Made by a program: the position numbers and the translations under genes. 64,000 nucleotides of DNA from Gaiella occulta (lineage in GTDB: Bacteria > Actinomycetota > Thermoleophilia > Gaiellales > Gaiellaceae): positions 62,001-126,000 of the forward strand of contig NZ_QQZY01000007.1 in assembly GCF_003351045.1 (NCBI RefSeq), written 5' to 3'. Below are positions 55,670 through 59,525 of this stretch, in pieces. A model generated the notes under the pieces. It was not told the origin of the DNA. It ran no database searches and was given only the letters and a program-made list of their open reading frames with translations. Positions within the stretch are counted from its first letter, which is position 1. Every line of letters begins with the position of its first letter.

Positions 55670-56929
55670 TCAGCCGCGCTCCAGCTCGAGCAGGTCGTCC
55701 ACCGTCTCCCGGCGCCGGATCAGCCGCACCTCGCCGTCCGCCACGAGCACGGCCGCCGGCCGCGTGACGCCGTTGTAGTTGGAGGCCATCGCGAGCGTGT
55801 AGGCGCCCGTCGCCGGGACTGCGAGCAGGTCGCCGCGTCGCGGCGCCGGCAGTGCGACGTCGTCGATGAGCACGTCGCCCGACTCGCAGTGCATGCCCGC
55901 CACGCTCACGACCTCGTCCGCCGGCTCGTCCGCCCGCTGTGCGCTCAGTGCCGTGTAGCGGGCGCCGTACAGCTGCGGCCGAGGATTGTCGGACATGCCG
56001 CCGTCGACCGCCACCCACGTGCGGCCGTCGAGCCGCTTCACCGCTCCGACCCGGTACAGCGTGACGCCGGCCCGTCCGACGAGCGAGCGCCCCGGCTCGA
56101 GCCAGAGCTCGGGCGCCGGCAGAGCCGCCTCGGCGAACGCCGTGCGCGCGGTCGCCGTGGCGGCATCGGCGAGAGCGGCCGCGTCCGCGACACGATCGTC
56201 AGGGTGGTGGCGGATGCCGAAGCCGCCGCCGAGATCCGCCACCCGCGCGCTCCAGCCGAGCGTGTCGCGGCACGAGGCGGCGAACGAGGCGAGGCGCACG
56301 ATCGTCTCCGCCTGCGCGTCGAAGCTCACGAGCTGCGACCCCACGTGCATGTGGAGGCCGAGCACGTCGAGGCCACGCTCGAGCGCGTCGGCGACGAGCG
56401 CGCGCGCCTGCGTGGGTGGGAGGCCGAACTTCGAGCCGTGGTGGCCGGTTCGGATCGCCTCGTGCGTGTCGGCGTCGACGCCGAGCGTGACGCGGACGAG
56501 CACCCGTGTGACGCCGGCCGCGGCTGCCAGCGCCGCCTCGTCGGGCGCGTCGAGCACCACCGTCGCTCCCTCCGCGCCCGCCTCGCGCAGGAACGCCTCG
56601 TCCTTGTTGTTGCCGTGCACGACGATCTCGCCGCCGGTCATCCCGGCGGCGCGGGCGAACGCGAGCTCGCCCGAGGAGGCGACGTCGGCGCCGATGCCCT
56701 CCTCCCGCAGCAGGCGCAGCAGCGCCACATTCGGGAACGCCTTCGTCCCGAAGGCGACGTGCCCGCTGCCGACCGCTCGCGCGAGCGAGCGCGCACGCTC
56801 GCGCACCGTCTCCGCGCAGTAGACGACGAGCGGCGTGCCGTGGCGCTCGGCAAGCGCCGCGGCGGGTGTCCCGCCGAGCGACAGCGTGCCGCCGTGGAGC
56901 GCGGCGCTGACAGGGAGCAGGTCGAGCAT
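55670..56929 (-). CDS. lysA: Diaminopimelate decarboxylase
   Basis: 419 residues, alanine-racemase-fold PLP enzyme. The PLP lysine is in 'HVAFGTKAFPNVALLRLL'; the glycine-rich phosphate loop is 'VADLGGGFGIRH'. 'LWLEPGRSLVGRAG', the catalytic cysteine in MHCESGDVL and 'GAYTLAMASNYNGVTRPAAVLV' complete the site. It makes lysine from meso-diaminopimelate. ATG 56929 has AGGATAGG upstream. It diverges from leuS, sharing the 148-bp region that holds the leuS leader. Confidence 0.92.
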   Translation of the reverse strand: MLDLLPVSAALHGGTLSLGGTPAAALAERHGTPLVVYCAETVRERARSLARAVGSGHVAFGTKAFPNVALLRLLREEGIGADVASSGELAFARAAGMTGGEIVVHGNNKDEAFLREAGAEGATVVLDAPDEAALAAAAGVTRVLVRVTLGVDADTHEAIRTGHHGSKFGLPPTQARALVADALERGLDVLGLHMHVGSQLVSFDAQAETIVRLASFAASCRDTLGWSARVADLGGGFGIRHHPDDRVADAAALADAATATARTAFAEAALPAPELWLEPGRSLVGRAGVTLYRVGAVKRLDGRTWVAVDGGMSDNPRPQLYGARYTALSAQRADEPADEVVSVAGMHCESGDVLIDDVALPAPRRGDLLAVPATGAYTLAMASNYNGVTRPAAVLVADGEVRLIRRRETVDDLLELERG

Positions 56930-56961
56930 GCGCCTATCCTGCCTGTTACGATTCGTCCTGC

Positions 56962-56982
56962 ATGCGGCAGCTTCTTGCATAG
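56962..56982 (+). CDS. Leader peptide MRQLLA upstream of leuS
   Basis: Six codons: ATG CGG CAG CTT CTT GCA, then TAG. CTT is a rare leucine codon in this genome, where CTC and CTG dominate, so a tandem pair is unlikely by chance in such a short ORF. There is no ribosome site, and the TACGAT box 9 nt upstream suggests that translation begins at or near the 5' end. It precedes an intrinsic terminator and the leucyl-tRNA synthetase gene. Confidence 0.6.
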   Translation: MRQLLA

Positions 56983-57024
56983 ACCGGGGAGCGAGCGCGG
57001 CGCGGCCGCGACCGGTTCCCCCTG

Positions 57025-57049
57025 AGCCTCTCCTGCGAGAGGCTTTTTT
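57025..57049 (+). terminator. Intrinsic terminator (attenuator) in the leuS leader
   Basis: AGCCTCTC (57025-57032) pairs perfectly with GAGAGGCT (57037-57044) around a CTGC loop and runs into six T residues (57044-57049). It is the only hairpin in the window with a real T-run. It lies 29 bp before the leuS ATG and after the leader peptide, not after a normal gene end on this strand. Confidence 0.85.
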
Positions 57050-57077
57050 GTTCCCCGAGCAGAATCGGCAGGAGACG

Positions 57078-59525
57078 ATGGAGCGCGACGACACGACGGG
57101 GCACTACGACCCGGGAACGATCGAGGCGAAGTGGCAGCGGGTCTGGGCCGACGAGCGGGCGTTCCACGTCCCGAACCCCGCCCTCGACGAGCTCGAGCGA
57201 GATCGGCGCAAGACCTACGTGCTCGAGATGCTGCCCTACCCCTCCGGCGAGCTGCACATGGGCCACGTCAAGAACTACACGCTCGGCGACGTCGTCACCC
57301 ACGTCCGCCGCCGCATGGGCTACGACGTGCTGCGGCCGATGGGCTACGACGCCTTCGGGCTGCCGTCGGAGAACGCCGCGATCAAGGAGGGCGGGCATCC
57401 GGGCGTGATCACCCGCCGCAACATCGTCGCCATCCGCGAGCAGATGCACCGCATGGGCTGGGCGATCGACTGGGGCCGCGAGGTCTCGACCTGCGAGCCC
57501 GAGTACTACCGCTGGACGCAATGGCTCTTCCTCCGCTTCTTCGAGCGCGGCCTCGCCTACCGCAAGGAGGCGCCGGTCAAGTGGTGCCCGAACGACCAGA
57601 CCGTGCTCGCCAACGAGCAGGTGGTCGACGGCCGCTGCGAGCGCTGCGGCGCCGAGGTCGAGGCGAAGAGCCTCACGCAGTGGTTCTTCAAGATCACCGA
57701 CTACGCCGACGCGCTGCTCGACGAGATGGAGCTGCTCGAGTCCTGGCCCGAGCGCGTGCTGACGATGCAGCGCAACTGGATCGGCCGCTCGCAGGGCGCC
57801 CGCGTCGTCTTCAAGGTGGAGGGCTCCGGCGAGGAGCTTCCCGTCTTCACGACCCGTCCCGACACGCTCTTCGGTGCCACCTTCTTCGTGCTGGCGCCCG
57901 AGCACCCGCTCGTCGAGGAGCTCGTGCGCGGCGGCGGGCACGAGGCCGAGGTGCGCGAGTACGTGCGTCGCGCCGCCTCCCGCTCGGCGGTCGAGCGCGA
58001 GGAGAAGGAGAAGGACGGCGTGTTCACCGGCCGCTTCGCGGTCAACCCGGTCAACGGCGAGACGATCCCGATCTGGGTCGCCGACTACGTGCTGATGGAG
58101 TACGGCACCGGCGCGATCATGGCCGTGCCGGCGCACGACGAGCGCGACCACGCGTTCGCCGAGAAGTACGGGCTCGAGATCCGGCAGGTCGTCGCACCCG
58201 CCGAGGGCGAGGCGGAGCCGGGCGCGTACGTCGCGCACACCGAGCACGAGCGCCTCGTCAACTCGGCGCAGTTCTCGGGAATGCCGGCGCCGCAGGGCAA
58301 GGAGGCGATCGTCGCCTGGCTCGCCGAGCAGGGGCTCGGCGAGCCGACGATCGGCTACCGCCTGCGCGACTGGCTGCTCTCGCGGCAGCGCTACTGGGGC
58401 GCGCCGATCCCGGTCGTCCACTGCGACGCGTGCGGCGTCGTGCCGGTGCCCGACAGCGAGCTCCCGGTCGTGCTGCCGGAGGTCGAGGACTACGTCCCGA
58501 AGGGCCGCTCGCCGCTCGCCGCGGCGGAGGAGTGGGTCGCGACGGCGTGCCCCTCGTGCGGCGCGGCGGCCCGGCGCGAGACCGACACGATGGACACGTT
58601 CGTCGACTCGTCCTGGTACTTCATCCGCTACTGCGACCCGCACAACGACCGAGCGCCGTTCGACCGCGCGATCGCCGACTACTGGCTGCCCGTCAACCAG
58701 TACATCGGCGGCGTCGAGCATGCCGTCCTGCACCTGCTCTACGCGCGCTTCTTCACGAAGGTGATGAACGACATCGGGCTCGTCGGCTTCCGCGAGCCGT
58801 TCGCCCGCCTCTTCACGCAGGGGATGATCCACTACCGCGGCGCCAAGATGTCCAAGTCGAAGGGCAACGTGATCGACCCGAACGCATACATCGAGCGCTT
58901 CGGGGCCGACGCCGTCCGCCTCTACATCCTCTTCATGGGCCCCGCCGACCAGGACATCGAGTGGCAGGACGCGGGCATCGAGGGCATGCACCGCTTCCTG
59001 AAGAAGCTCTGGCGGGCCGTGCTCGAGCAGGCCGGCAAGGAGCGGGCCGAGGCCGCGACGCCGCTCGCCCGCAAGGCGCACGAGACGATCGCCAAGGTGA
59101 CCGACGACGTCGACCGCCGCTTCGTCTTCAACACGCCGATCGCCGCTGTGATGGAGCTCGTGAACGAGCTCGGGCGCGCGCCCGACGACCCGGCGGCGCG
59201 CTTCGCCGCGGAGACGGCGGTCTCCCTGATCCAGCCGTACGCGCCGCACGTCGCCGAGGAGCTGTGGTCGCGGCTCGGCCGCGAGCGGCTGTGGGACGAG
59301 CCGTGGCCGCGGGCCGACCCGGCGCTTCTCGAGCGCGAGACGGTCGAGGTCGTCGTGCAGGTGAACGGCAAGGTGCGCGAGCGCCTGCACGTGCCGCCCG
59401 GCACGGCGAGCGAGGAGCTGCTGGCGCTCGCGCTCGCCTCCGAGCGCGTGCGGGCGCACCTGGACGGCAGGGAGCTGCGCAAGCAGATCGTGGTGCCGGG
59501 CAAGCTCGTCTCGCTGGTCGTGTAG
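57078..59525 (+). CDS. leuS: Leucyl-tRNA synthetase
   Basis: 815 residues, class I synthetase. HMGH (residues 60-63, for HIGH) and KMSKS (590-594) bind ATP. A zinc-ribbon-like CERC and CPSC pair and the CP1 editing domain ('VFTTRPDTLFGATFFVLAPEHPLV', threonine-rich editing motif) lie between them. The C-terminal anticodon domain and the 'VVVQVNGKVRERLHVPPGTASEELLALAL' tail are present. It charges tRNA-Leu and edits mischarged products. AGGAG stands before the ATG. Expression is probably set by the attenuator-like leader just upstream. Confidence 0.96.
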   Translation: MERDDTTGHYDPGTIEAKWQRVWADERAFHVPNPALDELERDRRKTYVLEMLPYPSGELHMGHVKNYTLGDVVTHVRRRMGYDVLRPMGYDAFGLPSENAAIKEGGHPGVITRRNIVAIREQMHRMGWAIDWGREVSTCEPEYYRWTQWLFLRFFERGLAYRKEAPVKWCPNDQTVLANEQVVDGRCERCGAEVEAKSLTQWFFKITDYADALLDEMELLESWPERVLTMQRNWIGRSQGARVVFKVEGSGEELPVFTTRPDTLFGATFFVLAPEHPLVEELVRGGGHEAEVREYVRRAASRSAVEREEKEKDGVFTGRFAVNPVNGETIPIWVADYVLMEYGTGAIMAVPAHDERDHAFAEKYGLEIRQVVAPAEGEAEPGAYVAHTEHERLVNSAQFSGMPAPQGKEAIVAWLAEQGLGEPTIGYRLRDWLLSRQRYWGAPIPVVHCDACGVVPVPDSELPVVLPEVEDYVPKGRSPLAAAEEWVATACPSCGAAARRETDTMDTFVDSSWYFIRYCDPHNDRAPFDRAIADYWLPVNQYIGGVEHAVLHLLYARFFTKVMNDIGLVGFREPFARLFTQGMIHYRGAKMSKSKGNVIDPNAYIERFGADAVRLYILFMGPADQDIEWQDAGIEGMHRFLKKLWRAVLEQAGKERAEAATPLARKAHETIAKVTDDVDRRFVFNTPIAAVMELVNELGRAPDDPAARFAAETAVSLIQPYAPHVAEELWSRLGRERLWDEPWPRADPALLERETVEVVVQVNGKVRERLHVPPGTASEELLALALASERVRAHLDGRELRKQIVVPGKLVSLVV

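Follow-up and report, generated by a model that had tools for sequence, protein, structure and literature searches.

A putative leucine leader-peptide attenuator in front of leuS in Gaiella occulta and its relatives

Features of the leuS upstream region

The window analysed here is a stretch of 64,000 nucleotides of Gaiella occulta DNA. Its forward strand carries leuS, the gene for leucyl-tRNA synthetase (TIGR00396; PF13603 editing domain), at positions 57078 to 59525, stop codon included. A gene for a lysA-like pyridoxal-dependent decarboxylase starts at about position 56929 on the reverse strand and is divergent from leuS. The two genes have a very short promoter region in common (56929-56962), and a motif within it, ATTCTGCCTGTTAC, is found again in relatives whose neighbour gene is similar.

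The following features all lie on the forward strand. A -10 promoter box (TACGAT, 56947-56952) was read directly, 9 nt 5' of the start of a leader ORF of six codons, MRQLLA (ATG CGG CAG CTT CTT GCA TAG, 56962-56982), which is conserved in relatives. The tandem rare CTT leucine codons inside this ORF (56971-56976) are the proposed sensor codons. The ORF is followed by a hairpin, named P1 (56986-57021), with outer arms GGGGAGC (56986-56992) and GTTCCCC (57015-57021) and a GC-rich inner stem and, 2 nt 3' of P1, by the intrinsic terminator GAGCCTCTC-CTGC-GAGAGGCTT with its T run (57024-57050; stem 57024-57045, T's 57044-57049). The ribosome binding region of leuS, GGCAGGAGACG (57066-57077), was again read directly. 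One terminator-like site was present in the region against 0.1 expected from shuffles, and since the neighbouring lysA-like gene is divergent, the terminator is not that of an upstream gene. The promoter box, the ORF with its CTT-CTT pair and the T-run terminator were present between 56947 and 57077 just as an earlier, sequence-only reading of this DNA had described them; its statement that CTT is rare agrees with the leuS gene of the window, where 2 of 63 Leu codons are CTT.

Conservation and distribution of the leader

A comparison of the leuS leader across related genomes, which the sequence-only reading had proposed as a check, was carried out by locating leuS through its N-terminus across genus, family and order. 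About 110 upstream regions were inspected, and 66 non-identical relatives, picked solely by the presence of the terminator, made up the comparison set. An ORF with Leu codons was identified at the equivalent place in 61 of the 66, with a Leu-Leu pair in 59; the other five consisted of one truncated contig and four loci without such an ORF. The leader peptides were diverse (MTHLLL, VQQLLA, MKELLL, MSTDLLV, VNLLLT, VRTLLISGMET, MQELLLT) and the Leu pair was retained.

A CTT or CTC codon occurred in every one of the 61 leader ORFs, and CTT in 58. CTT made up 77 of the 147 Leu codons of the leaders (52%) versus 16 of 367 (4%) in the 5' portion of the leuS genes that these leaders precede (Fisher p about 1e-34, uncorrected for relatedness). 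The tRNA-Leu anticodons of the genome were CAA, TAA, CAG, GAG and TAG, of which GAG reads CUU and CUC; the GAG species was missed by a pattern search and identified with a tRNA model.

All 61 leaders carried a TANNNT box 4-11 nt 5' of the leader start codon (7-11 nt in 60), against a background of about 1.2%, and none of them contained a promoter-like TANNNT box between the terminator and leuS. These positions make a leaderless or nearly leaderless transcript probable, with its start at the leader ATG or immediately 5' of it. Although six-codon ORFs are common in any sequence, a chance arrangement, or a constitutive terminator behind a meaningless short ORF, is extremely improbable: at the level of sequence comparison chance is excluded as an explanation, every part being conserved across tens of genera.

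A covariance model of the leader gave matches in 75 of 399 class genomes, a single copy in each and placed at leuS, and nearly all of these matches were within the window's own family. The sole match outside the order, located 5' of rRNA, is probably due to chance. Matches across the phylum were few and weak, one of them being leader L242 from another family (genome G574, locus positions 1440-1600). It consists of a leader peptide, MKEISAPTATLLLT, ended by a stop codon, with TTGACA/GACAAT promoter boxes, a hairpin and a terminator, and it precedes a synthetase gene whose start resembles leuS.

Eleven of the examined family loci, several of them in one genus, had no leader at all, a pattern suggestive of loss in some genera, and the terminator alone was retained in a few relatives. 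The sequence-only reading had named relatives without the Leu codons or the terminator as the case against it; these form a minority. At L141 (G116) and L182 (G104) the leuS terminator is retained while the ORF and P1 are gone, and at L141 the terminator would sit at the extreme 5' end of the transcript. L148 and L156 (G097 and G025, of the same genus) have no P1, the terminator following directly after the Leu codons; the ORF of L156 is initiated by GTG and extends into the terminator, and GGG occupies the place of the start codon in L148. Three leuS-like matches, one with a leader, were found in G067 (family f2), which suggests duplication, transfer or a mixed assembly.

Hairpin P1 and the search for an antiterminator

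In the window, the distance from the last CTT codon, counted from its first base, to the start of P1 is 12 nt. Counted in the same way from the last CTT or CTC codon, it ranged from 12 to 14 nt over the 59 leaders in which it was measured (13 nt in 50; standard deviation 0.38). In four leaders with longer ORFs, which may be related to one another, the stop codon is displaced by 7-11 nt into P1, yet the distance from the Leu codon to P1 is still 13-14 nt. Toeprints show that a ribosome covers about 11-12 nt past the first base of its A-site codon. Because this covered stretch matches the distance between codon and hairpin, P1 would start at the leading edge of a ribosome stalled at the Leu codon.

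The outer stem of P1 had on average 5.45 contiguous pairs, versus 4.22 +/- 0.13 with swapped 3' arms, and was upheld by compensatory changes on both sides in relatives. RNAalifold on the alignment of the leaders (A1) returned the inner stem and the terminator only, without the outer stem, because MAFFT had misaligned P1, which was therefore parsed separately. Folding of the 61 leaders gave the outer stem a paired probability of 0.66 when the ribosome occupied the first Leu codon and of 0.18 when it occupied the stop codon. According to this model the formation of P1 is dependent on the position of the ribosome, and the sequences fit a P1 that indicates if the ribosome has moved beyond the CTT/CTC codon.

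The inner sequence of P1 is also conserved, as might be expected of a leader bound by a protein or another factor, like the LEU element proposed for leuA, with the Leu codons being incidental. Mutations of the Leu codons of leuA did defy the expectation of classical attenuation, according to PMC1262725. Factor binding is nevertheless very unlikely in the present leaders, where the bias for Leu and CTT persists while peptide length and neighbouring residues vary. Base pairing of the LEU-element type, in which the Leu run would bind the ribosome-binding region of leuS, was rejected, the duplex energy being -9.86 kcal/mol for own partners, -10.27 for swapped partners and -11.01 for the reversed ORF, not above the controls.

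In Arthrobacter and other Actinomycetota, leuS was preceded by the same plan in different sequences, with ORFs such as MRAILLLS and a GCCCCTC..GAGGGGC terminator. The -10 box was exactly 6 nt 5' of the ATG in all candidates when 4-12 nt were allowed, and this spacing was a selection criterion for the set of 31 Arthrobacter-type leaders. The last Leu codon was CTT in 30 of the 31, versus 3% CTT in leuS itself; P1 began at the final base of the stop codon in 25, and in 24 a gap of 2 nt separated P1 from the terminator. With only 8 nt from the last CTT to P1, these leaders have a shorter spacing than the window's family (12-14 nt). At another locus (L246, G531:C83, about locus positions 1450-1640) ilvB, encoding acetolactate synthase by sequence, is preceded by an ORF ending in VVVVVR, a hairpin at its stop codon and then a terminator, which is the plan of the leuS leader with Val codons.

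The GC-rich stems had been read as able to compete. P1 and the terminator occupy separate stretches and coexisted in leaders folded singly. The antiterminator test consisted of folding each leader up to the terminator loop while masking the footprint of a ribosome placed either on the Leu codon or on the stop codon; the leader of E. coli trp, its sequence verified against genomes, was used as a positive control. The control gave the classical signature, in that the 5' arm of the terminator was held by upstream RNA at 0.62 (stall) versus 0.03 (stop). In the 61 leuS leaders the 5' arm was paired upstream at 0.41 (stall) versus 0.42 (stop), with no switch, and folding yielded the terminator in both ribosome states. 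No consistent conserved antiterminator was found by folding in three ribosome states, by a search for partners of the terminator arm or by an anchored scan for alternative helices, and the linkers flanking P1 did not coevolve in a way that would prolong P1 into the terminator (own -3.27, swapped -3.66 kcal/mol). The claim of competition between the stems was thus abandoned. The Leu codons and the linker that precedes the terminator showed a weak correlation over 4 bp (31 seen versus 22 expected), which was judged to reflect shared descent.

These results bear upon the usual mechanism for such leaders, a classical three-strand attenuator of the trp type, in which stalling would produce an antiterminator sharing a long stretch with the 5' arm of the terminator. 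Seliverstov et al., in their treatment of Streptomyces leuS, describe antiterminator hairpins (PMC1262725), and in the ilvBNC leader of Corynebacterium glutamicum antiterminator and terminator share only a boundary GCC (PMC11857589); both speak for such a mechanism. Since the leuS leaders do not respond while the trp control switches, the classical overlapping antiterminator was not recovered, and with P1 linkers that do not coevolve into the terminator a mechanism of this type is improbable.

When the base of P1 was blocked, the 5' arm of the terminator paired slightly more with upstream RNA, the pairing with the 3' half of P1 being 0.28 versus 0.02; the same blocking in Arthrobacter-type leaders gave an upstream pairing of 0.39 versus 0.14. 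This effect, together with the ending of P1 2-5 nt before the terminator stem, would suit a P1 that is mainly a polymerase pause hairpin or a helper of the terminator. The response would then be reversed or weak, a passing ribosome would lower termination, and leuS would track translation capacity and not leucine starvation. Such a function is quite improbable, being physiologically unusual for a synthetase gene and leaving unexplained both the bias for rare CTT and the fixed distance from the Leu codon to P1.

Relation to known attenuators and proposed mechanism

Attenuators were predicted 5' of leuS in Streptomyces avermitilis and S. coelicolor by Seliverstov et al. (2005; PMC1262725), and LeuL2 of S. 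lividans TK24 (MRAVRLLLSEPR) was reported in a reannotation of 2021 to be leaderless and followed by a hairpin and a U run (PMC8079986). The window and its relatives follow the same plan of a Leu ORF, a hairpin and a poly-U terminator before leuS. The gene, the phylum, the Leu-run ORF at the 5' end of the transcript (mapped in S. lividans), the hairpin and the intrinsic terminator are shared with Streptomyces, whereas the sequences of leader peptide and hairpin differ. Because of the Streptomyces prediction and the leaderless LeuL2, leuS leader-peptide attenuators are a known kind. No description of a leuS attenuator in the window's lineage was found in the open-access subset of the literature, and the family-wide set in that lineage appears to be undescribed.

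The ilvBNC leader of C. glutamicum resembles the leuS leader in its near-leaderless ORF, in having CUU among its control codons and in an antiterminator hairpin that directly abuts the terminator (PMC11857589), as the hairpin adjoins the terminator here. It differs in that its two hairpins share GCC and a third hairpin exists, the leuS leaders having no conserved shared bases. The leaders of E. coli trp and Salmonella leu likewise combine a peptide containing codons of the sensed amino acid with an intrinsic terminator, but they act by overlapping antiterminator and terminator (demonstrated for trp by the control used here), and the leuS leader lacks the overlap. In the enterobacterial leu leader, sensitivity was lowered when CUG replaced the rare CUA codons (PMC1183508), and the rare CTT of the leuS leaders echoes this CUA as well as the CUU of ilvBNC (PMC11857589). 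T-box leaders also place synthetase genes under the control of tRNA charging, as is proposed for the leuS leader, which in contrast is too short and carries an ORF with Leu codons instead. No T-box match was obtained in Rfam at gathering level or at E up to 5, in keeping with the earlier statement that T-box features are absent. Other Rfam families gave none at gathering level, and at E up to 5 only scattered sub-threshold matches, among them Phe_leader (E 2.4) and, on the other strand, Chlorobi-1.

The comparative evidence strongly supports a leucine leader-peptide attenuator of leuS as proposed in the sequence-only reading. The Leu codons with their rare CTT, the promoter, P1 and the terminator upheld the proposal through their conservation, and the competing stems are the part that fell. 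The leaders contain an ORF with Leu codons that is predicted to be translated, a terminator between ORF and gene and, in the folding model, a ribosome-dependent hairpin; the antiterminator sharing sequence with the terminator that defines the classical trp-type subtype was not found. We put a probability of roughly 0.7 on a ribosome-mediated transcription attenuator that senses the charging of Leu-tRNA and uses P1 as its ribosome-responsive element.

In the proposed mechanism, transcription would start at or beside the ATG of the leader ORF. If charged tRNA-Leu for CUU/CUC were scarce, the ribosome would wait on CUU with its leading edge just before P1, and P1 could fold directly ahead of it, next to the terminator. 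Stalled ribosome and folded P1 may together crowd or out-compete the terminator, so that the polymerase would read into leuS and more synthetase would be made. With plentiful leucine, the ribosome would reach the stop codon, open the base of P1 and leave, and the terminator would end most transcripts. That starvation raises leuS expression is expected from precedent and physiology; the folding slightly favours the opposite sign, as the pairing of the terminator arm after blocking of the base of P1 indicates. P1 might act on the terminator either by keeping the stalled ribosome pressed to it or as a site at which the polymerase pauses. Rather tentatively, a hairpin at the edge of the Leu-stalled ribosome might take up the RNA between ribosome and polymerase, the ribosome thus pressed on the terminator blocking termination, and leaderless leaders in Actinomycetota, those of leuS and perhaps that of ilvB, might generally be built on such a non-overlapping arrangement.

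With these leaders, the control of a synthetase gene by a leucine leader peptide, previously predicted in Streptomyces, would extend to a whole family of mostly uncultured Actinomycetota. The leuS leaders make up a sizeable natural alignment, where the position of the regulatory hairpin appears to be fixed by the Leu codon and not by the stop codon. If the non-overlap is confirmed, searches for attenuators in GC-rich bacteria would shift away from overlapping hairpins and toward the distance from codon to hairpin.
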